Positions 1,158-19,757 of a stretch of DNA of 27,918 nt are shown here, in pieces. Under the pieces are notes generated by a model. The model ran no database searches and was not told where the DNA came from. It was given only the letters and a program-made list of their open reading frames with translations. This DNA is from a virus. The stretch covers positions 1-27,918 of the IMG/VR virus record IMGVR_UViG_3300014838_000066; one strand, given 5' to 3'. Position 1 is the stretch's first letter; each line of letters opens with the position of its first letter. Both the position numbers and the translations under genes were made by a program.

Positions 1158-1186
1158 TTGCAAGAGTGGGGCGATTGTGCTAGTAT
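1158..1186 (+). promoter_or_regulatory. Extended -10 promoter P2 for RNA-A
   Basis: TTGCAA (1158-1163), a 17-base spacer and TAGTAT (1181-1186) preceded by TGC (extended -10) form a good sigma70-type promoter. The predicted start of transcription is 1193-1194, exactly where the long terminal stem of the RNA below begins. Confidence 0.65.
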
Positions 1187-1192
1187 AGAGAT

Positions 1193-1411
1193 AGGTTCAT
1201 TGAAAGCTGGTGGCACAGGTAGAAATATCCGCGCTATCGGAAGGGATAGCAATTCCTAAAAGAAGCAAAGACGTTATCGTAGTTAGGTACGGAACGTAGA
1301 TGTCATCCTATAGAGCATCTTTTATCTGTAACTCTCATGGAATAAAAGCCCGACGCAATAGGTTCACCGTTGCAAAGGTGAAATCCAAAGCCATCAGCTC
1401 TCAGTGAATCG
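1193..1411 (+). ncRNA. Structured RNA-A (leader or free ncRNA) with closed 5'-3' stem
   Basis: This stretch has no supported ORF. Bases 1194-1214 pair with 1390-1410 over 21 positions: 20 pairs including three G-U, and one A-C mismatch (1204/1400). Further helices can be read by eye: 1215-1224 with 1320-1329 (10 pairs), hairpin 1233-1238/1245-1250 with a GGAAGG loop whose GGAA can pair with TTCC at 1253-1256, CCTAA 1255-1259 with TTAGG 1283-1287, and hairpin 1363-1368/1377-1382. No U-run terminator follows, so the RNA may remain as the 5' leader of the YopX operon mRNA or be processed. It shares overall design and the 9-mer CGTAGTTAG (1278-1286) with RNA-B. The class is not recognised; folding was not computed. 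Confidence 0.6.
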
Positions 1412-1433: not shown

Positions 1434-1886
1434 ATGAGAAAGATAATGTTTCGCGCGTGGTATAAACGAAAGAAATATATGGTTACGACAAGCTCTGTAG
1501 CTTGTGATTTATCTAAGTGGGGATATAGCGATGATTATATTCTTATGCAATTTACGGGAATGCTCGACCAATCTGGCAAAGAGATTTACGAAGGAGATAT
1601 TGTAAAAATAGCCAACATAAAAGTTTGGTCAGAAGATTTTATAAAACCAATGAAAGGGACGAGTGGTGTAGTGAAATGGATAAACGAGGGAGGGGAATAT
1701 TGGATGGATTTAATTTGGGATAAAAACAAAAAAGAAGCATCGAGGGAATTTTTGAGGCTTGTGGGGGATGAATGGAATCAGGAAATGGACGAAATTGAAT
1801 CAAATAATTTACTTGTTATCGGTAATATTTACGCGAATCCTGAGTTAGTCGCCGAGCAAAAAACAAAAAAGAAAACAAAGAAATGA
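1434..1886 (+). CDS. YopX family phage protein
   Basis: Matches the YopX family, common in phages of many bacteria and of unknown function. Its usual signatures are visible: an N-terminal FRAWY block (residues 6-10), the core LMQFTGMLDQSGKEIYEGDIV (starting near residue 37, with the EGDIV turn), a beta-rich middle, and the C-terminal VIGNIYANPEL signature. The length of 150 is normal. It is the first gene behind RNA-A; the start codon lies 23 bases after the RNA's terminal stem in a leader reading AACTAATAAAACC, with no Shine-Dalgarno motif. The C-terminus ends in a Lys-rich tail. Confidence 0.85.
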   Translation: MRKIMFRAWYKRKKYMVTTSSVACDLSKWGYSDDYILMQFTGMLDQSGKEIYEGDIVKIANIKVWSEDFIKPMKGTSGVVKWINEGGEYWMDLIWDKNKKEASREFLRLVGDEWNQEMDEIESNNLLVIGNIYANPELVAEQKTKKKTKK

Positions 1887-2499: not shown

Positions 2500-3059
2500 A
2501 AAAGTATCAGATAATCTATGCCGATCCGCCGTGGAGTTATCAAAATGGAGGTGTTCCACAAGCCGGAGTAAATGCACAATATCCGACAATGACGCTCGCT
2601 GATATAAAAGCGTTGCCGGTAGGAGATATAGCCGATAATCCCTCTGTTCTTCTTTTGTGGGCGACATTTCCACAATTAGCGGAGGCATTGGAAGTTATCA
2701 AGGCGTGGGGCTTTGAGTATAAGACACTCGGCTTTTCGTGGCTTAAAACCAACAAAGACGGCTCGCCATTTTTTGGAGTGGGATACTATGCGAAATCGAA
2801 CCAAGAGGTGTGCTTGCTCGGCGTAAAAGGCAAAGCCCATTCACTCGTAAAGAGCAATTCTGTTTCATCGGTTCTTATCACGGGAAGAACGAAGCATAGC
2901 GAAAAACCAGAAATCGCTCGCACAAAAATCGTTGAACTGTTTGGCAATCTTCCCCGCATAGAACTTTTCGCCCGCCAAAAAACAGAAGGGTGGGATGTAT
3001 GGGGAAACGAATGTAAAAGTGATATAGAATTAACCTCTAAAAGAAAAGAAAAAAACTAA
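2496..3059 (+). CDS. MT-A70-type adenine-N6 DNA methyltransferase
   Basis: Transfers a methyl group from S-adenosylmethionine to adenine N6, here most likely in phage DNA. The catalytic motif DPPW is at residues 10-13 (preceded by IIYA). The conserved C-terminal signature RTKHSEKP (131-138), the PRIELFAR strand and the GWDVWGNE end are typical of phage and bacterial MT-A70 proteins. The length of 187 is normal. The start at 2496 is chosen because it overlaps the upstream stop (ATGA) and places DPPW at the usual distance; an upstream ATG at 2406 would add 30 low-complexity basic residues inside the previous gene. No matching restriction enzyme is nearby, so protection against host restriction is a plausible role (inference). 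Confidence 0.88.
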   Translation: MKKYQIIYADPPWSYQNGGVPQAGVNAQYPTMTLADIKALPVGDIADNPSVLLLWATFPQLAEALEVIKAWGFEYKTLGFSWLKTNKDGSPFFGVGYYAKSNQEVCLLGVKGKAHSLVKSNSVSSVLITGRTKHSEKPEIARTKIVELFGNLPRIELFARQKTEGWDVWGNECKSDIELTSKRKEKN

Positions 3060-3060
3060 C

Positions 3061-3231
3061 ATGGACTTCTTTGGAATAGAAAAAGCATTGCGCTTTCAGG
3101 AAGAAATGAGAAATTGGCGGCAGAAAACCGATAAACATTTCTATGAAGCTTTTAAGAAATCGAATGAAGAAAACGAAGCGTGGATAAATGAAATCTTAAA
3201 AAGAAATAAAAAAAGATCACTAACGCATTAA
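3061..3231 (+). CDS. Small hypothetical protein (56 aa)
   Basis: An ATG one base after the methyltransferase stop opens a 56-codon frame beginning MDFFGIEKAL and ending RSLTH. It is highly charged and predicted to be one long amphipathic helix (FQEEMRNWRQKTDKHFYEAF). The leader AAAAAACTAAC before the ATG matches that of other genes here. Function unknown. It fills the gap between two methyltransferase genes. Confidence 0.55.
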   Translation: MDFFGIEKALRFQEEMRNWRQKTDKHFYEAFKKSNEENEAWINEILKRNKKRSLTH

Positions 3232-3243
3232 CAAAAACCATTG

Positions 3244-3909
3244 ATGAAGATTCTTAATTTATATGCAAATATCGGAGGCAATCGGAAGTTGTGGGGCAAT
3301 CAACACGAAATCACGGCGATTGAACTTAACCCTAAGGTCGCAGAAATATATAAAGACTTTTGGCCTAACGATACGGTTATTGTCGCAGATGCACACCAAT
3401 ACTTATTAGACCATTACAAAGAGTTTGATTTTATTTGGTCATCGCCTCCATGTCCTACCCATTCGAAGGTTGGTAGATTGCGAGCGTTCAATGAACATAA
3501 CAAATCTACGGGTCAGTATTCACCGGCGAAATATCCCGATGTGGCTTTGTATCAAGAGATATTACTTTTGGAAGGCTATTTTAAGGGGAATTGGTGCGTA
3601 GAGAACGTAGTGGCTTGGTATAAACCTTTAATACCTCCTACGCAATTAGGCGGTCATTGGTTGTGGTCGAACTTTGGTATTTCAGATAGGAAATTTGATA
3701 TAAGGCAAATTAACACCAAAGGCAAAAACGATGCACAAATTAGATCAAAGAAATTGGGTTTTGATTTATCGAAATATACTGGCATTGATAAACGATTGGC
3801 ATTAAGGGATTGCACCGAACCAGAATTAGGCAAACATATTCTCGATTGCGCCATGAACTCCCCATCACTTTTCGCCGCCCCAAAAGAAAAACAAAAAGGT
3901 CTATTCTAA
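3244..3909 (+). CDS. C5-cytosine DNA methyltransferase-like protein
   Basis: Resembles the small DNA cytosine-5 methyltransferases encoded by phages. Motif I for S-adenosylmethionine is LNLYANIGG (residues 4-12), an acidic residue follows in AIELNP (25-30), motif IV carries the catalytic Cys in SSPPCPTHS (66-74, Cys70), and motif VI is the ENV triplet (120-122). The 221 residues are short compared with most C5 enzymes (300-400), so the target-recognition region must be minimal or supplied differently. The ATG at 3244 is preferred over the TTG at 3241. It follows the MT-A70 gene, giving two base-modifying enzymes in one operon. Confidence 0.8.
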   Translation: MKILNLYANIGGNRKLWGNQHEITAIELNPKVAEIYKDFWPNDTVIVADAHQYLLDHYKEFDFIWSSPPCPTHSKVGRLRAFNEHNKSTGQYSPAKYPDVALYQEILLLEGYFKGNWCVENVVAWYKPLIPPTQLGGHWLWSNFGISDRKFDIRQINTKGKNDAQIRSKKLGFDLSKYTGIDKRLALRDCTEPELGKHILDCAMNSPSLFAAPKEKQKGLF

Positions 3910-3946: not shown

Positions 3947-5275
3947 ATGAATGAAATAAACTTAGGCTCGATAAAATTACCAATAAACGCCGCGACTAAG
4001 AGCTTTGCAATCCTTGCAAAACGTGGAGCTGGGAAGACCTATCTCGGCGGAGTAATGGCAGAAGAGTTCTTTAAGAATAATATACCTTTTGTTGTATTTG
4101 ACCCTATTGATGTGTGGTGGGGGCTTCGATTTGATAAAAATGGTAAGGATAAGGGTTTGCCCGTGGTTGTTTTTGGGCTTGAACATGCTGATATTCTATT
4201 AGACAGGGATATGGGGCCGGAAATTGCGCGCGCTATCGTAAAAGAAAATGTATCATGTGTCATATCAACATTTGGAATGCCGAAGGTTGGGGCAAGGCAC
4301 TTAATCGCGGAATTCGCGGAAACGCTTTTGAACATCAACAACACTCCCCGCCATGTGTTCATCGAGGAGGCGCATGAGTACGTCCCCCAGAGGGTCGTAG
4401 GGGGCATGAGTACGGTATTCTCCCGCGTGGAATCTCTTGTTACTATGGGAAGGAATCGTGGTATCGGAGTAACAATGCTCAACCAGCGTGCGGCGACACT
4501 TAACAAGGATGTGCTTACCCAGATTGATACACTTCTTGCCCTCCGCTCATTAGGCCCACAGGACAGGAAGGCACTCGCTGAATGGGTGGAAGCGCATGGT
4601 ACGGAAGATAATAAAAAGTTCGATGACTTTATTAAAGCACTTCCCTCCATTCCGACAGGGGAAGGGTATATCTGGTCGCCAGAATTCCTTGGCGTGTTTG
4701 ACAAGTTCAAGATCAGGAAGCGCGAAACACTCCACCCTGACCGAGAAAAGATAGGCAAAGACTTTGAGATGCCGGAACTCACACAGACTGATGTGCAGTC
4801 ATTCATCTCAAAGTTTTCCAGTTCGCATTCTTCCACGGCACAAAAGGTAAAAGGACAGAGCAAGCAAATACCTCAAATAATTCAACCTATTGTCGAGAAC
4901 GAAACACTTATTCAAGTTCGTAATCAATACGAATCGCAACTAATTCAAAAAGATGGCGAGATCCACCGATTAAATGCCATCATAGAAAACATCAGGGGAT
5001 TGGTAGGCGGCACGCCACAACAAACGACCTATCTTCCTCTTTCGAACGATGTGGTGAGTATGTGGAAGAATAAATTAGGGCCATCATCTTTAGCGACACG
5101 CATCCTTAATTTTCTAGTAGAAAATAATCATCGTGCGTTTTCAAGGGAACAGATTGCACTTGCGCTTGGAGTTTCGGCGAAAGGAGGATATATCAACAAC
5201 GAATGGGGAAGATTGATGCGTACGAGTACGGTGGTAAAGGATGGCTCAATGTATAAATTAAATCCTAATCTTTAG
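3947..5275 (+). CDS. HerA-like (DUF87/FtsK-HerA class) ATPase
   Basis: A hexameric-type P-loop ATPase of the HerA class. Walker A is AKRGAGKT (residues 24-31), Walker B is HVFIEEAHE (136-144) with the acidic pair, and the GRNRGIGVTMLNQ block (168-180) followed by TQIDTLLALR matches the sensor and arginine-finger region of HerA proteins. A short coiled segment precedes a C-terminal winged-helix-like domain (about 370-440). Cellular HerA works with NurA in DNA end processing; no NurA is nearby, so the partner is unknown. ATG at 3947 (leader AAATAAC) is preferred over a TTG at 3929, which adds six residues. Confidence 0.8.
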   Translation: MNEINLGSIKLPINAATKSFAILAKRGAGKTYLGGVMAEEFFKNNIPFVVFDPIDVWWGLRFDKNGKDKGLPVVVFGLEHADILLDRDMGPEIARAIVKENVSCVISTFGMPKVGARHLIAEFAETLLNINNTPRHVFIEEAHEYVPQRVVGGMSTVFSRVESLVTMGRNRGIGVTMLNQRAATLNKDVLTQIDTLLALRSLGPQDRKALAEWVEAHGTEDNKKFDDFIKALPSIPTGEGYIWSPEFLGVFDKFKIRKRETLHPDREKIGKDFEMPELTQTDVQSFISKFSSSHSSTAQKVKGQSKQIPQIIQPIVENETLIQVRNQYESQLIQKDGEIHRLNAIIENIRGLVGGTPQQTTYLPLSNDVVSMWKNKLGPSSLATRILNFLVENNHRAFSREQIALALGVSAKGGYINNEWGRLMRTSTVVKDGSMYKLNPNL

Positions 5276-5336: not shown

Positions 5337-5498
5337 ATGAGATTGACCGTAGAAGAGAAACAAATCCTCTCCGCCGCCGCCACGATCAGGGCAACGCGGA
5401 TGTGGGCAAAGAGAAGCAAGAAGGATAGGGTAGCCCACGCAAAGATGATGAACCAAGCAAGTCAAAACGCAAGAAACGCCAAAAAGGTAGATAAATAG
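5337..5498 (+). CDS. Small basic hypothetical protein (53 aa)
   Basis: A 53-codon frame starting MRLTVEEKQI and ending KKVDK. It is strongly basic and Ala-rich and predicted to be helical throughout, so nucleic-acid binding is possible but unproven. The leader AACCAATAACCAACTACT has the A/C-rich character of other starts here. It is the last gene before promoter P3 and RNA-B. Confidence 0.55.
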   Translation: MRLTVEEKQILSAAATIRATRMWAKRSKKDRVAHAKMMNQASQNARNAKKVDK

Positions 5499-5525
5499 GG
5501 GTTAACTAGGCTGTGCAAAACTCGC

Positions 5526-5553
5526 TTGACACAAGCCACAGGAGGCGTATACT
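5526..5553 (+). promoter_or_regulatory. Consensus sigma70 promoter P3 for RNA-B
   Basis: A perfect TTGACA (5526-5531), a 16-base spacer and TATACT (5548-5553). The predicted start of transcription is about 5560, which is the first base of the long terminal stem of RNA-B. Confidence 0.72.
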
Positions 5554-5559
5554 GATTAC

Positions 5560-5708
5560 AGATGGTTGATTGATGGGAGTGGGGGAATGTACTTAACCCA
5601 TTCAAGGTGCGGAGTAAAATACAGACGGTAGGCGAACGTAGTTAGCAGATGGGCTAAATCGTAAAACCTTACTTCAACTCCTTGACCAGTCCCACCAGTC
5701 AATCATCT
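5560..5708 (+). ncRNA. Structured RNA-B, same architecture as RNA-A
   Basis: This stretch has no supported ORF. Bases 5560-5578 pair with 5690-5708 over 19 positions with one A-C mismatch (5573/5695) and two G-U pairs. Inside, 5593-5602 can pair with 5648-5657 (one A-C mismatch), and AAGGT at 5604-5608 within that loop can pair with ACCTT at 5666-5670 outside it, which would form an H-type pseudoknot. A competing hairpin is TTAGC 5642-5646 with GCTAA 5653-5657. The segment AGACG...CGTAGTTAG (5624-5645) recurs in RNA-A. No U-run terminator follows; the next ATG is 33 bases downstream. Class not recognised; folding not computed. Confidence 0.6.
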
Positions 5709-5740
5709 AAAAGGTCGAAACAAACAAATTAACCAAAACT

Positions 5741-5983
5741 ATGGAAAACCTAGAACATTCAATCCTCGTGGCGCACCAGCATACTATCGCACGGAATTAT
5801 ATCCGCCGGATAGCGAACCTCACGAAGTTGCAACGCTTTGAGGAATTGGAGGAAACCTTGATAAAGTTCGCGGGCATAGCAACCCTTTGGGGCATACAGA
5901 AAGAGAATATCCAAAACGCCGCGTCAAAGGATGGGTCGGCGGCGCAAAGAGAAAAACCAATAAAATTAACAATAAAAGTATGA
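5741..5983 (+). CDS. Hypothetical helical protein (80 aa)
   Basis: Not recognised. An 80-residue, mostly helical protein (an N-terminal HSILVAHQHTIARNYIRRI helix, then KLQRFEELEETLIKFAG). It is the first gene after RNA-B, with leader AAATTAACCAAAACT and no Shine-Dalgarno motif. Its stop overlaps the next start codon by 4 bases. Confidence 0.6.
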   Translation: MENLEHSILVAHQHTIARNYIRRIANLTKLQRFEELEETLIKFAGIATLWGIQKENIQNAASKDGSAAQREKPIKLTIKV

Positions 5984-6111
5984 CAAAATTCGAGCAAGCA
6001 GTAGAAGATGTAATGTTGCTATCGGTGGAGGAAGCCGAGTTAATCGCGGCAGAAGAAAAAGAGCAAAGGTGGGCAGACAGCCATGAGGAGATGGAATACG
6101 AATTAAACTAA
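5980..6111 (+). CDS. Small acidic hypothetical protein (43 aa)
   Basis: Starts at the ATG that overlaps the preceding stop (ATGA) and encodes 43 residues, MTKFEQAVED to MEYELN. It is acidic and predicted helical. A longer in-frame start at 5887 would run 97 bases into the previous gene and add a basic, low-quality segment, so the shorter form is preferred. Function unknown. Confidence 0.5.
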   Translation: MTKFEQAVEDVMLLSVEEAELIAAEEKEQRWADSHEEMEYELN

Positions 6112-6154
6112 GGCGGACATCATTCTGGCGGTTATGTCGTCCGACTTTGCCGCC
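6112..6154 (+). other. Intercistronic hairpin element
   Basis: The 71-base gap before the pentapeptide gene begins with a GC-rich palindromic stretch. GGCGG 6112-6116 can pair with CCGCC 6150-6154, and inside it either CGGAC 6114-6118 with GTCCG 6139-6143 or GACAT 6116-6120 with ATGTC 6134-6138; these alternatives exclude each other. There is no U-run, so it is not a standard terminator. Confidence 0.35.
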
Positions 6155-6182
6155 GGAATAATCAATAAAATAACAAAAATCT

Positions 6183-6563
6183 ATGAGCAAAATAACCAAA
6201 GAGGACGTATTAAATAACATCGAGGAAGTCAAAAAGTATATCCAAGAAGCCGAGCAGAAGACCAAAGAAAAAAATAAGGTAGTCATTGAGATTAAGAACC
6301 GCTTTACGGGAGAAGTGAAGTTTGCGAGCGAGAAATCAACCATTAAGGAAGCGATACAGGATAATAAGGCAAACCTTTCCGGGGCAGACCTTCGCAAGGC
6401 AAACCTTTACGAGGCAAACCTTTACGGGGCAAACCTTTCCGGGGCAGACCTTCGCAAGGCAGAGTTACAAAATGCCAAGTTCTACGGCAAGGGTGGCGCG
6501 ACAAAAATAAAAAAGAGCCAAGTCGATGACTTCTTCAAAGCACTTGGGATAATCGTTGAATAA
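6183..6563 (+). CDS. Pentapeptide-repeat protein
   Basis: An N-terminal helical region (residues 1-60, Lys/Glu-rich) precedes about eight A(N/D)LXX units: ANLSG, ADLRK, ANLYE, ANLYG, ANLSG, ADLRK, AELQN, AKFYG (about 64-103). Such units build a right-handed quadrilateral beta-helix; some family members mimic DNA and inhibit gyrase, but most have no known role. With only eight units the helix would have two turns, fewer than in gyrase-inhibiting members. The C-terminal tail is helical (SQVDDFFKALGIIV). Leader ATAACAAAAATCT, no Shine-Dalgarno motif. Confidence 0.8.
   Translation: MSKITKEDVLNNIEEVKKYIQEAEQKTKEKNKVVIEIKNRFTGEVKFASEKSTIKEAIQDNKANLSGADLRKANLYEANLYGANLSGADLRKAELQNAKFYGKGGATKIKKSQVDDFFKALGIIVE
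6368..6461 (+). repeat. 34-base direct repeat inside the pentapeptide gene
   Basis: Bases 6368-6401 and 6428-6461 are identical over 34 positions at a 60-base offset, each encoding ANLSGADLRK. The DNA identity, not only protein similarity, suggests recent duplication or gene conversion that changes the number of repeat units. Confidence 0.75.
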
Positions 6564-7711: not shown

Positions 7712-8127
7712 AATACGAAACAGATATTCCGCAAGTAAAATTATTCGCAAACTGGGCGACCGAAAACATAGAAAAGTTCCTCATCTCCGAAGGGCATTGC
7801 TACTCCGAGGCATTATGGGTTGGTGGCATTACCGATTGTATGGCAGAGATGAAGAACGGCGAAGTGTGGATAATTGACTTCAAATCATCGCCCGTTGCTT
7901 ACGACTCGCAATTCGTGCAGGTGGCTGGATACGACCTAGAGCAAGCGGAGAATGGCATCTTTGACGCGGACGGGAAAAATATGCTCGCGCCGCAAGAGAT
8001 AAAAAAATACGCTATCGTTCCCTTCGGTGCAAAAGAATTCAAGGTCGAAATAAAAGAAGCGACGAATGAGTTTAGGGAAGGGTTCAAAAGTGCGGCGTGC
8101 TTATATAAACTATTAAACAAAAACTAA
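7708..8127 (+). CDS. PD-(D/E)XK nuclease, C-terminal catalytic half
   Basis: Carries the catalytic core missing from 6795-7181: Glu34 (CYSEALWVGG), Asp43 (GGITD), the DxK motif in WIIDFKSS (Asp57, Lys59) and QVAGY (71-75), in the order expected for RecB/Cas4-like phage exonucleases. The start MKYETDIPQVKLF joins smoothly to the end of the N-terminal half, as if the HNH gene had been dropped between two codons. Translation would be coupled to the HNH gene through the ATGA overlap. Together with the next gene it probably forms a recombination or end-resection pair. Confidence 0.75.
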   Translation: MKYETDIPQVKLFANWATENIEKFLISEGHCYSEALWVGGITDCMAEMKNGEVWIIDFKSSPVAYDSQFVQVAGYDLEQAENGIFDADGKNMLAPQEIKKYAIVPFGAKEFKVEIKEATNEFREGFKSAACLYKLLNKN

Positions 8128-9977: not shown

Positions 9978-10436
9978 ATGACCAACCAAACCAAGCGCGC
10001 CATTGGAACATTCGCTCCCGCCCCGATGAAAACAGAAAGCTGGGAGAAGGAGTTTGATGAGGCGATGCGATTATTTGCATACAAGTATTCAAGCGAACTA
10101 ATTGAGAACGCATACGGAGTGTCAAAAACATTTCTTGACGAACAATTCAAAAAGCTATTTTCTTCCCTTCTCACTAAGGAGAGAGCTGCGGCGGAAAAAG
10201 AATGTTCGCTCGACCATACGCGGGAAGAATGGATAGAAGCAAAGATTGCCGCCGCCGAAGCATCTATGCTCGCAAAAGCATTGAGTGTCGTGCCGGAGAA
10301 AAGAGAAAGTGATTTTACTGCGATAGATGAACTACTTGAACGTTATATGGATGGTTGGAACGCCGCCGTGGAAGAAATAAAGAAAAACCTCGAAGCCCTT
10401 GATAGCCTCGCGCCGAAAAAGGAGAAAGAGGGGTAA
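9978..10436 (+). CDS. Hypothetical helical protein (152 aa)
   Basis: Not recognised. Mostly helical and highly charged, with a possible coiled coil (KERAAAEKECSLDHTREEWIEAKIAAAEA is in the middle third). The C-terminal RYMDGWNAAVEEIKKNLE block is shared with the 66-residue protein at 8982-9182. It is the last gene before the chaperonin cluster. Confidence 0.6.
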   Translation: MTNQTKRAIGTFAPAPMKTESWEKEFDEAMRLFAYKYSSELIENAYGVSKTFLDEQFKKLFSSLLTKERAAAEKECSLDHTREEWIEAKIAAAEASMLAKALSVVPEKRESDFTAIDELLERYMDGWNAAVEEIKKNLEALDSLAPKKEKEG

Positions 10437-10732: not shown

Positions 10733-10946
10733 ACGTTATGGAAAATCACGATGCTCAAAAGGAAACTATTTACACAAGTTTCGAGAGGTCGAGCGGAACG
10801 AGTATGGAGTCCTTGAACGGTGCGAGCGGTGCGGGCTAAGAAAGCATTTTCCACAAGATATTTCAAGCAGTAAATACCTAGAGTTTCACATCCGAGAAGT
10901 CCTACAAACAAACGACCAAATTTATTACCATGAGTACACGCGATAA
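10722..10946 (+). CDS. Small zinc-finger-like protein between groES and groEL
   Basis: A 74-residue protein with a CERCGLRKHFP knuckle in the middle and an upstream Cys11/His18 that could complete a zinc site. It overlaps the GroES-like gene by 11 bases and groEL by 17 bases, an unusual insertion into a pair that is normally adjacent. Its function is unknown. Overlap on both sides lowers certainty, but the gene would otherwise leave a 200-base gap. Confidence 0.5.
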   Translation: MLDRRYGKSRCSKGNYLHKFREVERNEYGVLERCERCGLRKHFPQDISSSKYLEFHIREVLQTNDQIYYHEYTR

Positions 10947-12528
10947 TCTCTATACGAGCGAACAGGCAAGAGAGAAGTTAATGAGCGGCATTAAACGTGC
11001 CAGTGAAGCTATTGCTATAACTATGGGTACTTCTGGTAGCAATAGTATCATTGAGGATATGCGTAATCCACAGTATTTTGTAAGTAATGACGGCGCATCA
11101 ATTTTGGAACGCATAAGGTTCGCTGACCCTATTGAGGAGTTAGGAAGAAAGATACTTTTTGAGGCTGTGGGCAGAAGTAATCGCGCGAATGGCGACGGAA
11201 GTTCTACGGCAACACTTTTGACTGCTTCTATCCTAGAGGAAGGTATGAAGCATATCGGAGAAGTCGCTCCGATGGAAATAAAAAAGAGCCTTGAAGACTG
11301 TATCCCCCTTATCGAAGAATCTCTTAAATCCCAGCGCAAAGAATTGGTGGATAAGGACGGCAATATCGACTTCAAATTACTTGAACAGACTGCTACTATC
11401 AGCGCAGAATCGGAGGAAATCGGAAAGACGATAGCTGAGATTTACAAGCATATTGGTAAAGACGGCATTATTAACTGGGAGGCGTCAAAAGATACCAAAG
11501 ACAGTTATTCCATCGGCACGGGCATCAAAATCGACGGAGCGACCTACGCTTCACGCTATATGTGCGACCAACTTCCGAACGGAGAGTATACCTATCAGGC
11601 AACCATAGAAAATCCTTTGGTTCTCCTAGCCTTCAGCAAGATAACCTCACAAGGAGAAATGGAAAAACTGGTCGGGGAATTACAGGTCCATGACGTAAAG
11701 GACTTGGTTATCTTCTGCAATGAGATGGACGCGCCGATTCTGAACAGTTTTATCCTCGCCCGCGCCCCGCAGACGCTCGGAATTAGATTTTTGGTCATCA
11801 AGATGCCTACGGTATTCAACGATTTATGGTGGGAGGACTTGGAGAAAGCATCAGGTGGAAGAATCATTAGCCCCTCATCGGGTATCAAGATGCGCGATAC
11901 CAAGATGGAGTTTTTGGGTCATTTTGGAAAGATAACCGTGAATCGTGAGGGAACGTTCATTGATGGCATACAAGATTTGACGACCCATTTGCTTGGACTC
12001 AAAGTGGACGGATCGGACGAAGCATTGGCTCGCGCGGCGAGATTAAACACAAAAACGGCTATTTATTTCGTGGGAGGACACAGCGAAAGCTCATTGGCGT
12101 ATAGAAGGCTTAAAATTGAGGACAGCATTAATTCTGCATATAGCGCATTGCACAATGGAATTGTTGCGGGAGGCGGATTAGCTCTAAAAAACGCCCGAAC
12201 GTGGGATGGCGAAACTGTAGGACAAGAGATATTAGATTATGCATTATTAACACCAATTATGCAGATTATGAGAAATGCTGGTATTGAGCATGACGTACTT
12301 TCGCAAGGGAGCGAAGAGGGATGGGACACGAGAACTAAAAAATTAGTTAATATGTTTGATGCTGGTATCGTCGATAGCTACGATGTTGTTCTCGGCGCAG
12401 TGAAGTCAGCAATCGGTGTTGCCGCAGGAGTTTTGACCGCCGGAAGTGTCGTCTTGTTGCCCCGGCAAGAGAATGACATAACCGACCAGATAGCCCAAAA
12501 AGTAGCAGGAATGATGCAACCACAATGA
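10930..12528 (+). CDS. groEL: Divergent phage chaperonin GroEL (Cpn60, group I-like)
   Basis: A 532-residue chaperonin subunit. Equatorial ATP-binding motifs are present: NDGASI (53-58, Asp54), GDGSSTAT (88-95, GroEL form GDGTTTAT), KIED (395-398, with the hydrolysis Asp at 398) and GIVAGGGLAL (410-419). The TLGPKGRN loop is changed to TMGTSGSN (31-38). The apical domain (about 190-350) is strongly divergent, and the segment before the second intermediate part is shorter than in E. coli GroEL. The C-terminus ends in AGMMQPQ rather than a GGM repeat. It likely folds a phage protein such as the capsid protein (inference). Its stop overlaps the next gene by 4 bases. Confidence 0.9.
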   Translation: MSTRDNLYTSEQAREKLMSGIKRASEAIAITMGTSGSNSIIEDMRNPQYFVSNDGASILERIRFADPIEELGRKILFEAVGRSNRANGDGSSTATLLTASILEEGMKHIGEVAPMEIKKSLEDCIPLIEESLKSQRKELVDKDGNIDFKLLEQTATISAESEEIGKTIAEIYKHIGKDGIINWEASKDTKDSYSIGTGIKIDGATYASRYMCDQLPNGEYTYQATIENPLVLLAFSKITSQGEMEKLVGELQVHDVKDLVIFCNEMDAPILNSFILARAPQTLGIRFLVIKMPTVFNDLWWEDLEKASGGRIISPSSGIKMRDTKMEFLGHFGKITVNREGTFIDGIQDLTTHLLGLKVDGSDEALARAARLNTKTAIYFVGGHSESSLAYRRLKIEDSINSAYSALHNGIVAGGGLALKNARTWDGETVGQEILDYALLTPIMQIMRNAGIEHDVLSQGSEEGWDTRTKKLVNMFDAGIVDSYDVVLGAVKSAIGVAAGVLTAGSVVLLPRQENDITDQIAQKVAGMMQPQ

Positions 12529-13015: not shown

Positions 13016-13254
13016 ATAACCTTAACCCAGAAGACCTCACCCCGGCGGAAGAAATAAAAAAGGCAGAAGATCAACAAGGAAAACTTAGTTACTCGGACGC
13101 AGAGTTCAACCCTGAAAAGAACGATAAAGTCATCAGCATAATGAAACAGATGGACGGGAATTGGAAGGCGTTTGGTCAGAAGAATGGAAAGATATTGGTG
13201 ATACGAGGCGTTAAACCTGAAGATGTGTTGGTGGAGTTCTTGACCCATGAGTAG
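13012..13254 (+). CDS. Hypothetical protein (80 aa)
   Basis: Not recognised. The N-terminal half is acidic and polar; the C-terminal half looks like a small alpha/beta domain (WKAFGQKNGKILVIRGVKPEDVLVEFL). Overlaps the next gene by 8 bases. Confidence 0.55.
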   Translation: MNNLNPEDLTPAEEIKKAEDQQGKLSYSDAEFNPEKNDKVISIMKQMDGNWKAFGQKNGKILVIRGVKPEDVLVEFLTHE

Positions 13255-13987: not shown

Positions 13988-15539
13988 AGTAGGTTTCCCA
14001 ATAGAGTTTCAAAAGCGACGGTTTTTGTTTGATATTTATAACGACCTTAGTCCTTTCCAAGTTCTCTTGAAACCGCCGCAGATTGGGGCTACGGTAATGA
14101 ACGCCCTCAAGAGCTTCTGGGTGGCAAAGAAATTACGGCGACAGATAATTTATACCCTACCAACCATCTCGGACGTTCAAGACATGGTCGGTGGTTCATT
14201 CAATCGTATCATCGCCCAGAATCCTATCTTGATGGAGTGGGTAAAAGACCACGATACCGTAGAGCAAAAGTCAGTAGGCAATTCAATTATTTTCTATCGC
14301 GGAACATTCACGGCAAAGCAGGCTATGATGATTCCATCAGGTCTGAACATCCACGATGAGGTCGATGCGTCGAATATGGAAGTCATCACGCAATATGAAA
14401 ACAGACTACAAGCACAGGAGGACGGAGGGTGGAGGTGGTACTTCAGCCATCCCAGCCTCGCTGGACACGGAGTCGATGTCTACTGGGAACAAAGCGATAA
14501 AAAAGAGTGGTTTATCACGTGCGAGGTATGTCATACAGAACAAATACTTACCTGGCCAGATAGCATTAAGGATGAAGTTTATATTTGCAAAAACTGTGGG
14601 CGAGCGCTCTCGGATACTGCAAGAATATGTGGAGTATGGAAAGCTACATCGCAAGGTGATTTTTCTGGCTATCACATCTCCCAGCTCATGCTCTACAACA
14701 AGAGCGCGAAAGACATCATCAAAGCGTTCAACGACCCGCAAAAAGACAAACAATACTTCTACAACTATGTCTTAGGGCTTCCCTTCATCGGCTCGGAGGA
14801 TAGGATAGAACCGAAAACCGTGCTGATGAACTGCGTGGACGAGGTGAATGATTACTACAAGAAGGACGACCGAGTCATCATCGGGTGCGATACGGGGCAT
14901 GGGATACACTATGTGCTAAGAAACCAGCAAGGAGTCTTCTTGTACGGGCATGAAACGGAGATAACGGCTAGTAAAGACCCCTACGACAAGATAGCGAAGT
15001 TCTTAGAGACCTTCGAGAAATCGGTGGCTATCTTCGACCAAGGAGGAGATTTAATCGGCGTGCGTAAGCTCCAAGCCAAATATCCCGGCAGGGTCTTTTT
15101 AGTCTTCTATCGCAAGGATAGGAAGTCGAACGATTACGTTGAGTGGGGCGTTGATGATGAGTTCGGCACGGTGAGAGTCGATAGGAATAGGCAGATGACC
15201 ATTATGGTCGAGCAGATGAGAGATATTGGCAGGTATCGGCTGAACGGCACAAAGGATGAATGGGCGGAGTTCGCCTCACACTTCGGCTTCTTATATCGTG
15301 AGGAGATTATTACTGACGCAAAGCCCGGCAAAGACGATAGGAGTTTGTTGGGGGCTGAGTATGTCTGGAAGAGAAACGGCCCCGACCATTTTTGTCATGC
15401 CCTACTCTATAGCGACATCGGTATGCAACGCTTCAACCATGAGAAAGCCGTTGTCTTCGGCGCGAAGGATGTCTTTGAGGGAATACGAAAAGCCCAAATC
15501 GTGTCAGATGGGGGCGTACAACTATTGTGGCCGAAATGA
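13905..15539 (+). CDS. terL: Terminase large subunit
   Basis: The motor and nuclease of DNA packaging. The Walker A position reads KPPQIGAT (residues 56-63), where the usual GK(S/T) is replaced by GAT; Walker B is NIHDEVD (148-154). A zinc ribbon CEVC ... CKNC (206-209, 228-231) sits between the ATPase and nuclease parts, as in GpA-like terminases. The nuclease starts at IIGCDTGHG (Asp329) with later acidic residues in AIFDQGGD and a DHFCHALLYS end. The start is uncertain: ATG at 13905 gives an 83-base overlap with terS, ATGs at 13923 and 13938 give shorter overlaps and the last begins MELSPALWA, typical for this family. Confidence 0.88.
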   Translation: MQYTAEMVSQAMELSPALWAIKHKIKNEVGFPIEFQKRRFLFDIYNDLSPFQVLLKPPQIGATVMNALKSFWVAKKLRRQIIYTLPTISDVQDMVGGSFNRIIAQNPILMEWVKDHDTVEQKSVGNSIIFYRGTFTAKQAMMIPSGLNIHDEVDASNMEVITQYENRLQAQEDGGWRWYFSHPSLAGHGVDVYWEQSDKKEWFITCEVCHTEQILTWPDSIKDEVYICKNCGRALSDTARICGVWKATSQGDFSGYHISQLMLYNKSAKDIIKAFNDPQKDKQYFYNYVLGLPFIGSEDRIEPKTVLMNCVDEVNDYYKKDDRVIIGCDTGHGIHYVLRNQQGVFLYGHETEITASKDPYDKIAKFLETFEKSVAIFDQGGDLIGVRKLQAKYPGRVFLVFYRKDRKSNDYVEWGVDDEFGTVRVDRNRQMTIMVEQMRDIGRYRLNGTKDEWAEFASHFGFLYREEIITDAKPGKDDRSLLGAEYVWKRNGPDHFCHALLYSDIGMQRFNHEKAVVFGAKDVFEGIRKAQIVSDGGVQLLWPK

Positions 15540-15808
15540 ACCGAGAAGAACGCAACGCTTACAACCGCAGGAAGCAAAAAGAGTACCGTGATTTGAAACG
15601 CGGCGCACCTCCCCATCACAAGCCGACGTTCGTAAAATATACCATCACGGCGAGAGTCTTAAATATCCACGTTCCTACGGAGGAGATACTCCGGCAGGCG
15701 GGACATTGTAGTTATTGCGGGATGCTCCTAGAATCTGAGTATCATCAGAAGCATCCGTTGGTAGGTTGTCAAGTGGCGGCGAGGAATGATAACTACGGGA
15801 AGAATTAG
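15536..15808 (+). CDS. Hypothetical protein with a CxxC zinc knuckle (90 aa)
   Basis: The basic N-terminus (MNREERNAYNRRKQKEYRDLKRG) looks like a nucleic-acid-binding helix; the C-terminal part has CSYCGMLLESEYHQKHPLVGC, a CxxC plus His/Cys arrangement of a degenerate zinc finger. No HNH triad is complete. It starts within the terL stop (ATGA). The stop TAG is the first part of the TAGTACACGA element. Confidence 0.6.
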   Translation: MNREERNAYNRRKQKEYRDLKRGAPPHHKPTFVKYTITARVLNIHVPTEEILRQAGHCSYCGMLLESEYHQKHPLVGCQVAARNDNYGKN

Positions 15809-15846
15809 TACACGAAATATAACGTATTGAGTTTGTGGGATAATGT
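15806..15846 (+). promoter_or_regulatory. Late promoter candidate L1 (TAGTACACGA element)
   Basis: TAGTACACGA (15806-15815, its TAG is the stop of the preceding gene) followed by GATAAT (15839-15844, spacing 23) or TAATGT (15841-15846). The latter lies 6 bases from the portal ATG at 15853, so the mRNA would start at the start codon. No TTGACA-like -35 is present at the normal distance. Confidence 0.45.
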
Positions 15847-15852
15847 GGTCAT

Positions 15853-17853
15853 ATGTCTGACCCATTCCAAGACAATATCGACGGCGTTACCCAACTCATC
15901 ACCTCGGATACCAATAAACTTCGCACGAAGGGCAATTTAGATGTCGAAGGCAAGGTAGGCGAGGAGCTGGATGTTCTCGACCTCCCGATGTCGGACACGA
16001 AGCTCTTGAAACTCCGCGATGAGTGGGAGAACCAATATGCCCCCTATGAAAGCAAAGTAGCCATTCCTATCCGTGCGAGAAACCTCAAAAGCTATCTCGG
16101 TAGGAACGCGTTAGGCGAAGTACCGGGCGATGACGAGATTGTAGCAGCTAACCTCCAGTTCGAGTCCGAGGAGACATTCTTACCTGCGGCTACGGCACAA
16201 GACCCAGCTCCCTTCTGTTTCGCCGCAAACGACCAGCAAGGGAACAAACTGGCAGATACCGTGCAGACGATGCTCCAGTTCCACGTTCAACAGTTAAATC
16301 TAAGGCGGAAGATAGCCGTTATGGTACGCCAGTGGTCAATCAATCATCTTGGAGTCCTGAAGCCGGGCTGGAACAAAGACATCAAAGACGTTGCTATTGA
16401 AAACCGCAGGATACAAGATTTCATCTTTGACCCCGAGGGCTTTGTTGATGTGTACGGAGATTTCAGTTCGTGGCTTGGTGAGAGGATCTACGTTACGGCG
16501 GAGAAGCTGACCGAACTGTTCCCCAAAAAGACCGCCGATATAATACTCGAAGTGGACGGGAAAATGGGAACCCGTGTCTGTTGTACGGAGTGGTGGAATG
16601 ATGACTATTGTTTTACGACGTTCGAGCATCTCGTTTTAGACAAGCACAAGAACGAGTATTTTAACTATGAGGATGAGGAACAAGAGCCAGATCCGCTGAC
16701 GGGGCAGACACCTCCTCCAAAACGGAATCACTTTGCCTTACCGAAGAAGCCGTATATCTTCTTGAGTGTTTTCAGCTTACAAGAGAGACCCCACGACATT
16801 ACGGGGTTAATCGAGCAAAGTATCCCCGACCAGCGGAGACTGACCAAGAGAGCCGACCAAATAGACAACAACGTCAGTCAGGCGAACAATGGACTGATAT
16901 TCAGCGAGGATAATTTCAATCAAGAGACAGCAAAACAAGGATATGACGCTTTGACCAAGAAAGGCTATGGTGGCGTTTTGGCACCTTCGAGTGAAAAGGG
17001 ACAGGGTGCGACAGGAGCCATCGTGCGCCTTGACGCTCCTAATTTCCCAGAGGCTGCCTTCAACGAGGTGGAAATGTTGGAGAACCATATTCGTAGTCGC
17101 TGGGGTACGCAGGGCATCTCAAGCCAGCCCGCGAAACCCGACGAAACCGCTCGTGGTATGACTTTGAACCAGCAGAGAGATACTTCACGCATCGGCGGTG
17201 GCATTGGAGATGTCATCGAGCAGTCCGTAGCGAAGCCAGCGTGTGATTGGCTGGTTCAGTTGTATCACGTCTTCTACGATGAAAAACACTTTGGAGCTGT
17301 CTTAGGTTCAGGCGCGGCGACGCAGTACGTCGAACTTCAGGCTCAAGACATCGACCAGCAGTTAATCGTCGGCATCACGGCGAACTCGATGCAACCGAAA
17401 GACCAAATAAGCGAAGGGAATCAGGCGATGACCTTAGCTCAAGGTGGATTTATCGGCCCAAAGACCTTATTAGAGACGCTTAATTTCCCCGACCCTGATG
17501 ACGCAGCATCGGACGGTGCGTTCTGGACGTACAGCCAAAAGACGGATGGCGGAATGGCTTACATCAGTTTGAATTTCCCAGAACTCGGTCAGAAGCTCCA
17601 ACAGATGCAAGCCCAACAGCAGCAGGCTGCCCAACAGCAACAGCAAGCCCAAGCTCAACAGGAAGCACAAGGAGTTCAACAGCAGCAGGCTCAACAGGGT
17701 CAAGCCGCCCAGCAACAAATGGCACAAAAAGAGTCGGCGCATCAACAGAAGATGCAGCACGAGGAACAAGACCACGCCCAAAAGTTAGCCCAGTCAAAAG
17801 AAATGGCGAGTGCAGCGTTAGCGGCGAAGACAAAAGGAACGGAGGCTAAGTAG
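15853..17853 (+). CDS. Portal protein (P22-like, Gln-rich C-terminus)
   Basis: Forms the dodecameric ring through which DNA enters the capsid. The 666-residue length, the alpha/beta core with the DFIFDPEGFVDVYGDFSSW segment, the long clip/stem region with IEQSIPDQRRLTKRADQIDNN and the basic SRIGGG loop fit the P22-type portal family. Residues of about 575-640 are extremely Gln/Ala-rich, predicted as a long helix that in P22 forms the barrel reaching into the head. It follows the terminases, as usual. The start has no Shine-Dalgarno motif and is near a TAGTACACGA element. Confidence 0.85.
   Translation: MSDPFQDNIDGVTQLITSDTNKLRTKGNLDVEGKVGEELDVLDLPMSDTKLLKLRDEWENQYAPYESKVAIPIRARNLKSYLGRNALGEVPGDDEIVAANLQFESEETFLPAATAQDPAPFCFAANDQQGNKLADTVQTMLQFHVQQLNLRRKIAVMVRQWSINHLGVLKPGWNKDIKDVAIENRRIQDFIFDPEGFVDVYGDFSSWLGERIYVTAEKLTELFPKKTADIILEVDGKMGTRVCCTEWWNDDYCFTTFEHLVLDKHKNEYFNYEDEEQEPDPLTGQTPPPKRNHFALPKKPYIFLSVFSLQERPHDITGLIEQSIPDQRRLTKRADQIDNNVSQANNGLIFSEDNFNQETAKQGYDALTKKGYGGVLAPSSEKGQGATGAIVRLDAPNFPEAAFNEVEMLENHIRSRWGTQGISSQPAKPDETARGMTLNQQRDTSRIGGGIGDVIEQSVAKPACDWLVQLYHVFYDEKHFGAVLGSGAATQYVELQAQDIDQQLIVGITANSMQPKDQISEGNQAMTLAQGGFIGPKTLLETLNFPDPDDAASDGAFWTYSQKTDGGMAYISLNFPELGQKLQQMQAQQQQAAQQQQQAQAQQEAQGVQQQQAQQGQAAQQQMAQKESAHQQKMQHEEQDHAQKLAQSKEMASAALAAKTKGTEAK
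17585..17790 (+). repeat. Low-complexity CAA/CAG-rich tract in the portal gene
   Basis: Irregular CAA/CAG/GCC codon runs encode the Gln/Ala-rich C-terminal helix of the portal protein. The tract is not a perfect tandem repeat, but could vary in length between relatives. Confidence 0.7.
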
Positions 17854-18795: not shown

Positions 18796-18855
18796 ATGAC
18801 AAACGGAAAGGTCGGAAAATACACGACAAAAAAACAAATTAGACAAACAAACTAA
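18796..18855 (+). CDS. Possible 19-residue peptide
   Basis: ATG four bases after the preceding stop opens a 19-codon frame (MTNGKVGKYT to IRQTN), basic. It contains a TACACGA sequence by coincidence or as a decayed late element; the spacing to the next start (52 bases) does not match the four good elements. Reality as a gene is uncertain. Confidence 0.25.
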   Translation: MTNGKVGKYTTKKQIRQTN

Positions 18856-18871
18856 ATCATAAAACAAAATT

Positions 18872-19240
18872 ATGGCAACCATGAATGTACCGGTACATCA
18901 GTACCACCCAGAGTTCTACTCTGGAGCGAAAGTCAGACAGTCAGAATTAACATTCGAGTATAACGCAGTGACAGCGAACACGACGCTTGTGGTGAATACC
19001 ATCGGCAATGTGGGAAACTGTCACGCGCTTATAGAGAATACATCAGGTTCAAATACTATCACACTTCCGACGGCAGTAGGTTGCGTGGGGTATCAGTTCG
19101 TCATTAAAAACACAGGTACGGGAACGGTAACTCTTGCGACGACATCAGGCCAGACGATCGACGGCGCAAGTACGCAGACCATCAGCCAGTACACGGCTTT
19201 AACTCCGGTGTCGAACGGAACAAATTGGATTCTTATCTAA
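18872..19240 (+). CDS. Beta-rich virion-type protein (GQTIDG / DGTNW-like repeat fold)
   Basis: A 122-residue protein with the pattern TITLPTAVGCVGYQFVIKNTG-TGTVTLATTSGQTIDG ... NGTNWILI. This block resembles a domain found in phage fibres and head-decoration proteins, in which strands of a beta-solenoid or sandwich alternate with conserved Gly turns. A virion surface role is likely but not certain. Unlike its two neighbours it has no transmembrane helix. Leader AAAACAAAATT. Confidence 0.6.
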   Translation: MATMNVPVHQYHPEFYSGAKVRQSELTFEYNAVTANTTLVVNTIGNVGNCHALIENTSGSNTITLPTAVGCVGYQFVIKNTGTGTVTLATTSGQTIDGASTQTISQYTALTPVSNGTNWILI

Positions 19241-19241
19241 C

Positions 19242-19757
19242 ATGAATAAAACATCAATTTCAGCATTGGTAGTAGCAGTGATAGCAGTGGCAATCGCAGG
19301 ATTTGCCGTTGCTTCACCTGTTCAGCAGAAGTTAGGGTCGTATACGCCTTCTCAACAGTCGGCGGGCGGATTCATCCATTCACTCGCTACCTCAACGGTG
19401 ATAGCGACGACTGATTTGTGTTCTAACGCAAATACGCAGTGGCTTGGAACTTCGGCATTGGCAACGGGAACACTCCCTGCGGCAACCTCGACCTATGCGG
19501 CATGCGGAGGACTTGCAAATCTCGGCGCATCGGTTTCGGGGAATATCATCAACGATTCAACGAATACCGTTGCATATTCTCCGGGTACAGGAGATGTGTT
19601 CAAGTGCGAAACGATTGGAGCGGGAACTTCGACGGTGCAGGGAACATGCACGGCAAGCACTTTAACCATCCTCGCAAGCTCGACGGTGAACTATCAGGTA
19701 TTCTTCGATACTTCATCCTCGTCGTTGGTATTCTTGGTAGGTAATAACTACAAATAA
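19242..19757 (+). CDS. Signal-anchor beta-rich protein
   Basis: 171 residues. An N-terminal helix (ISALVVAVIAVAIAGFAVA, about residues 5-23) ends in ASPVQQK, compatible with a signal peptidase I site after Ala, so the protein could be exported or anchored. The remaining Thr/Ser/Ala-rich part has strands (STYAACGGLANLGASVSGNII, TVNYQVFFDTSSSSLVFLVG) and four Cys that may form disulphides. Same arrangement as the 18122 protein. Together these suggest exported or membrane-associated phage proteins; no family is recognised. Confidence 0.6.
   Translation: MNKTSISALVVAVIAVAIAGFAVASPVQQKLGSYTPSQQSAGGFIHSLATSTVIATTDLCSNANTQWLGTSALATGTLPAATSTYAACGGLANLGASVSGNIINDSTNTVAYSPGTGDVFKCETIGAGTSTVQGTCTASTLTILASSTVNYQVFFDTSSSSLVFLVGNNYK

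Follow-up and report, generated by a model that had tools for sequence, protein, structure and literature searches.

The question raised by the present locus is whether a 217-base segment between a NinG-family gene (its upstream neighbour) and a YopX-family gene is more than an ordinary untranslated leader, and if so, whether its core or its closing helix matters. The window, i.e., the whole stretch of 27,918 nucleotides that was analysed (27.9 kb, record G000 of the set used here), belongs to an uncultivated phage for which no close isolate was found by terminase or HerA, while a genome search for the host returned only a distant Woesearchaeota-labelled MAG contig. Elsewhere, the window harbours a peptide deformylase gene (86-550), a pentapeptide-repeat-like protein recognised by eye (6183-6563) and a GroEL-type chaperonin gene (10930-12528), a GroEL-type chaperonin being present in many related contigs. 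Further, AGTACACGA occurs four times on the + strand (15807, 17852, 26344 and 27738) against an expectation of 0.08. All four copies coincide with a stop codon and precede a late gene, and the sequence is a candidate late promoter or regulatory element.

The terminal helix and its setting

The segment, termed RNA-A, is defined by the following features:

1158..1186, + strand: sigma70-type promoter, TTGCAA - 17 nt - TAGTAT (from the sequence and promoter-plus-stem scans)
1194..1214, + strand: 5' arm of the RNA-A terminal helix, GGUUCAUUGAAAGCUGGUGGC, opening with the recurrent signature GGUU[C/G]NUU
1390..1410, + strand: 3' arm of the RNA-A terminal helix, GCCAUCAGCUCUCAGUGAAUC
1434..1886, + strand: YopX-family gene downstream of RNA-A (Pfam PF09643, E 5.9e-16)

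The preliminary description of this DNA had placed a terminal helix with one mismatch at 1194-1214/1390-1410, and the helix is indeed there: 20 of its 21 positions are paired, with three G·U wobbles (pairs 2, 7 and 17) and a single A·C mismatch (pair 11). Pairing between the flanks of one unit thus extends beyond 17 bp, and similarly so in other units described below. For the 217-mer, the folding energy is -70.7 kcal/mol, shuffled sequences giving -47.8 +/- 4.4 (z -5.3; equalled by 0 of 200 shuffles), and its terminal stem has the top score among the long stems of the window. Of 200 Markov-resampled windows, 6 contain an equally good stem, so that the stem taken alone corresponds to p = 0.03 or thereabouts; it is regarded as beyond chance because it occupies an intergenic site directly 3' of a promoter and recurs in other phages. 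The helix is meaningful, and RNA-A is rightly set apart from an ordinary unstructured leader.

Between the end of the -10 box and the helix lie 7 nt, and another 23 nt, including an A-rich stretch, separate the helix from the start codon (ATG) of the YopX-family gene. A scan of 1390-1434 revealed no terminator-like site, i.e., no intrinsic terminator of the kind that an independent sRNA would carry. DnaA-box-like sequences (TTATCCACA/CTATCCCCA) are seen at 1141-1150 of the window as well as before several promoters in related records (L053, L055, L063, L067, L072 and L170), lying a few to ~40 nt 5' of the -35 boxes of the leaders.

The interior of RNA-A

Inside the terminal helix, the following elements are found:

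1215..1224, + strand: 5' strand of the second helix (P2), pairing with 1320-1329 in the MFE structure, two pairs being G·U; weak alone
1320..1329, + strand: 3' strand of P2, pairing with 1215-1224 in the MFE structure
1233..1250, + strand: local 6-bp hairpin (1233-1238/1245-1250) with loop GGAAGG; z -1.3
1333..1340, + strand: core segment UCUCAUGG, a perfect complement of CCAUGAGA (1432-1439), which covers the start codon of the YopX-family gene
1363..1382, + strand: 6-bp hairpin UUCACC/GGUGAA; z -2.8 for 1355-1388

Of the internal helices described earlier, the 10-pair helix was recovered as P2 and the independent 6-pair hairpin as 1363-1368/1377-1382 with an 8-nt loop. The proposed partnership of GGAA (1239-1242) and TTCC (1253-1256) fared less well: both sequences are in place, but their pairing would create an H-type pseudoknot in which connecting loops of 0, 2 and 2 nt would have to span a 6-bp stem; on geometric grounds this is sterically implausible while the hairpin stays closed and would need it to open. 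Devoid of the terminal stem, RNA-A (1215-1389) reaches only z -1.8 against shuffles, and its inner part (1225-1319) z -1.9; the core does not stand out clearly against shuffled sequence, and a special core is not supported. Furthermore, none of the units found has a core sequence conserved with RNA-A, no k-mers are common to the cores of the bracketed units beyond chance, and a candidate motif shared by the cores of RNA-A and RNA-B, the second unit of the window (CGTAGTTAG), was rejected for the same reason. What survives of the claim that RNA-A is no ordinary leader is hence its long terminal helix, and not the compact multi-helix core.

A coding payload was likewise rejected. The best forward frame of RNA-A has a codon-usage score of -0.04, where in-frame genes of the phage score 0.09 +/- 0.06 (5th percentile -0.01) and other frames -0.09 +/- 0.09; the small ORFs carry no coding signal and gave no match in a PHROG search. 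Rfam 15 yielded no match in the window at the gathering threshold and nothing relevant in 1100-1500 at E values up to 10, while blastn detected no RNA-A orthologues in named phages or among all loci compared.

Bracketed units in the window and in related phages

The window holds a second unit of the same design:

5526..5553, + strand: RNA-B promoter, TTGACA - 16 nt - TATACT (from a scan)
5560..5708, + strand: RNA-B, stem-bracketed unit of 149 nt with arms 5560-5582/5686-5708; z -4.6

RNA-B has the second-best long stem of the window and repeats the layout of RNA-A, with a promoter, a 6-nt gap, the unit and, 32 nt later, an ORF (5741). Relatives were sought among the numerous contigs of uncultivated phages obtained by terminase searches, most of the sequence of ~34 records being scanned. 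In about seven phage records, units bearing a common arm signature were found, the 5' arm opening with GGU[U/G][C/G]NUU. Those outside the window are:

L053/L042 unit, 1331-1448: non-coding payload (L042)
L063 unit, 19423-19568: non-coding payload
L067 unit, 18814-18939: non-coding payload
L156 unit 1, 5391-5730: 85-aa ORF (5437-5694)
L156 unit 2, 5733-5946: non-coding payload
L073 unit, 5692-6196: two ORFs (5734-6163)
L170 unit, 7749-7918 (reverse-strand coordinates): 170 nt, non-coding, found by arm sequence alone

The non-coding units (RNA-A, RNA-B, L042, L063, L067, L170 and L156 unit 2) span 118-217 nt, and the largest payload-bearing unit 505 nt. In L156, two bracketed units stand in tandem before an operon, an arrangement that recalls rRNA operons; like stems thus enclose different payloads (L156, L073), the L156 units presumably sharing a transcript. 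In L073, L170 and L063, the unit does not start right at a promoter. Across offsets, long stems (score >= 40) at +1 number 7 against 0-4 elsewhere, a modest excess. A tRNA suspected inside a further bracket, that of L152, was supported by neither ARAGORN nor Rfam, and L152 was therefore excluded from the pair counts.

Nine stems (RNA-A, RNA-B, L042, L063, L067, both L156 units, L170 and L073) were aligned from the stem base. The succession reads G-C, G·U (7/9), U-A, U-A, C-G or G-C, a variable pair, U·G (8/9), U-A and again a variable pair, most stems being mismatched somewhere near pairs 10-13. Paired cells amount to 92.4% and 10 of 16 pairs are changed on both sides, figures that are inflated as most members were found as stems; the covariation score of 0.67 versus 0.19 in shuffles is partly circular for the same reason, the stems having mostly been chosen as stems. 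The signature occurs in 7 of 48 non-coding long stems (six sites, one of them on both strands) and in 0 of 62 others, with 0.42 expected from shuffled arms, the motif being drawn from the same data; upon removal of RNA-A, RNA-B and one strand copy of L073, four remain against 0.42 expected. Less circular than these pair statistics are the similarity of the 5' arms and the L170 unit, in which the arm was found first and the complement after. Exact matches to the RNA-A/L073 5' arm were present at 32 viral loci, among them a single new non-coding locus, L170. Its arm match has a 21-position downstream complement (score 46), the others scoring <=32 except for the already known L073/G001 unit. The L170 unit, on the reverse strand, lies inside an element with a tyrosine integrase-like ORF and a tRNA at its edge, and carries the same arm, GGUUCUUUGAAAGCUGGA.

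RNA-B and L042 have a common stem base (TGGTTGATT/AGTCAATCA); on either side of it the two stems differ by paired changes, and an A·C mismatch is conserved between them. In a pattern scan of viral contigs for RNA-B, L042 was the only genuine match; seven others were rejected as unrelated sequence, mostly folding poorly. At the promoter that matches the position of RNA-B in three relatives (G013, G009 and G018), there are just 4-5 bp hairpins, 7-9 nt past the -10 box. Since relatives have short +1 hairpins and the units enclose varied payloads, the recurring part is the structured 5' end and the payload is replaceable; short +1 hairpins as such show no enrichment over other downstream offsets. 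Such hairpins at the RNA-B-equivalent operon start are also seen in L055 (-, 2700-3300), L072 (-, 1600-2700) and L069 (+, ~3050), with loops such as AAATAGTCGAA, AAGGAGGTCGAA and ATTAGTCGC. A GTCGAA/GTCTAAC-like motif recurs in leaders, and GGTCGAA is present 3' of the RNA-B stem as well.

Apart from these units, other long-stem RNAs were encountered. Homologous 114-nt promoter-led units occur in L070 (-, 10114-10227) and L071 (-, 13139-13252; both in reverse-strand coordinates), with 75% identity over 126 bases, stem differences that are paired changes, and no arm signature; in L070, further long hairpins come after the unit. L025 has adjacent long-stem RNAs at 4823-4918 and 4920-5035, with tRNA-Met (5052-5123) coming directly after them. 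In L060 (-, within 15400-16600), a unit of ~740 nt with arms CCTCTCCTCTCGCGGA/TCCGCGAGAGGGGAGGGG surrounds an HNH endonuclease-like ORF and is possibly a mobile RNA element. In Rfam searches of the loci of related units only tRNAs matched, and viral contigs yielded no relative of either the YopX-family protein encoded after RNA-A or the ORF after RNA-B.

Probable processing or protection of an operon message

The stem, rather than closing a fold around a special core, probably signals processing or protection where a phage operon message begins. In its specific form, held tentatively, RNA-A may well be the 5'-terminal, cis-acting leader unit of a YopX-led operon transcript, with a leader-trailer-type stem that serves as an RNase III-type substrate and/or a 5'-end clamp. 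As judged from the promoter, transcription would start at or beside base 1194, and the first 21 nt would pair with 1390-1410, burying the 5' end of the message in the stem. This stem would enclose ~175 nt of RNA with little conservation and leave an A-rich stretch before the start codon. Most likely it would be cut by a double-strand RNase of the RNase III type and/or clamp the 5' end, and either event would free or shield the leader unit while fixing where the downstream message begins and how stable it is, much like the action of leader-trailer helices on pre-rRNA. This reading is favoured because the stem lies 7 nt past the -10 box and shortly before a start codon without a terminator between, because RNA-B has the same layout and the signature recurs around different payloads, and because the L156 units stand in tandem and RNA-A lacks a coding signal.

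T7-type RNase III sites lie between early genes as local hairpins; they too are stems that define message ends within polycistronic phage transcripts, whereas the units described here have long-range stems enclosing a unit. The ornate ncRNAs GOLLD and ROOL are phage-borne and non-coding like RNA-A, but are much larger and have conserved cores, while RNA-A has no Rfam match. The nearest known structures are the leader-trailer helices of pre-rRNA, which exceed 17 bp and are cleaved by RNase III (PMC10250234). Like the present stems, the pre-16S and pre-23S helices comprise ~20 bp formed from the flanks of an RNA unit inside a longer transcript, allow tandem units and are variable in sequence. 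Unlike them, the phage stems bracket short RNAs or small ORFs, their cleavage is putative, and those of RNA-A and RNA-B start at or near the first base of the transcript.

Among the alternatives, a put- or boxA-like processive antitermination leader is unlikely. The nascent RNA, folded at the 5' end of the transcript, would here modify the polymerase in the manner of HK022 putRNA, or the arm (GGUUC(A/U)UUGAAA) would bind Nus factors, and the operon would be read through. The 5' arm may resemble Gram-positive rRNA boxA/spacer sequences, a likeness taken as a lead only, since a literature search found no confirming text; the boxA-like arm is itself paired in these units. Units placed right after promoters at operon starts do recall HK022 putL, and putL and putR are, like RNA-A, structured phage RNAs in a cis position directly 3' of an operon promoter (PMC9378689). 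Nevertheless, HK022 put, located downstream of an early promoter, is compact (~70 nt, two stem-loops, no long bracketing stem; PMC9378689), while RNA-A measures 217 nt with a long-range terminal stem and stems of this type bracket up to 505 nt including ORFs, a comparison of anatomy. The need for antitermination at this site is, moreover, hypothetical.

It is also unlikely that RNA-A is an independent trans-acting sRNA, transcribed from its own promoter, given a 3' end by processing at the terminal stem and acting through its core on host or phage RNA or protein. A promoter of its own and a closed terminal helix are typical of stable ncRNAs, the fold is very stable and one phage carries two units; against this, no terminator follows RNA-A, its core is barely more structured than shuffles and shares motifs with other units no more than by chance, and relatives have a 4-5 bp hairpin where RNA-B would be.

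A translational switch, in which 1333-1340 would pair with the start region (1432-1439), either by a pseudoknot spanning the terminal stem or within another fold, is improbable. The perfect 8-nt complementarity gives a duplex of -16.4 kcal/mol against -9.4 +/- 2.1 for shuffled cores, matched by 0.6% of them (p ~0.006), but complementarity of this type to the start region is absent from RNA-B, L042 and L156 unit 2, and nested folding favours the terminal stem by ~15 kcal/mol; the complementarity is best treated as a pointer to translational control peculiar to RNA-A. A DNA-level element, i.e., a MITE-like insertion with terminal inverted repeats in place of an RNA structure, is very improbable: long inverted repeats do flank varied payloads, ORF-bearing units included, but the arm differences of RNA-A and RNA-B are mostly G·U-compatible on the transcribed strand (albeit the strand that the search favoured) and the units are in register with promoters and start codons.

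Returning to the leader-trailer-type stem, a broader proposal is conceivable, if doubtful: that the rRNA-like bracket (GGUU[C/G]NUU.../...AAUC, with recurrent wobbles in pairs 2 and 7 and mismatched at the centre) is a modular excision and stabilisation cassette, used at operon starts and around small genes, which borrows the pre-rRNA processing and antitermination machinery of the host. Should the reading prove wrong, RNA-A would still offer a clearly delimited 5' leader structure open to testing, in a group of phages for which no close isolate was found. If it is right, the arm signature provides a route to more such units by sequence, and these phages would have taken over the layout of the rRNA operon, with paired ends for each unit and units in tandem, for their own messages.
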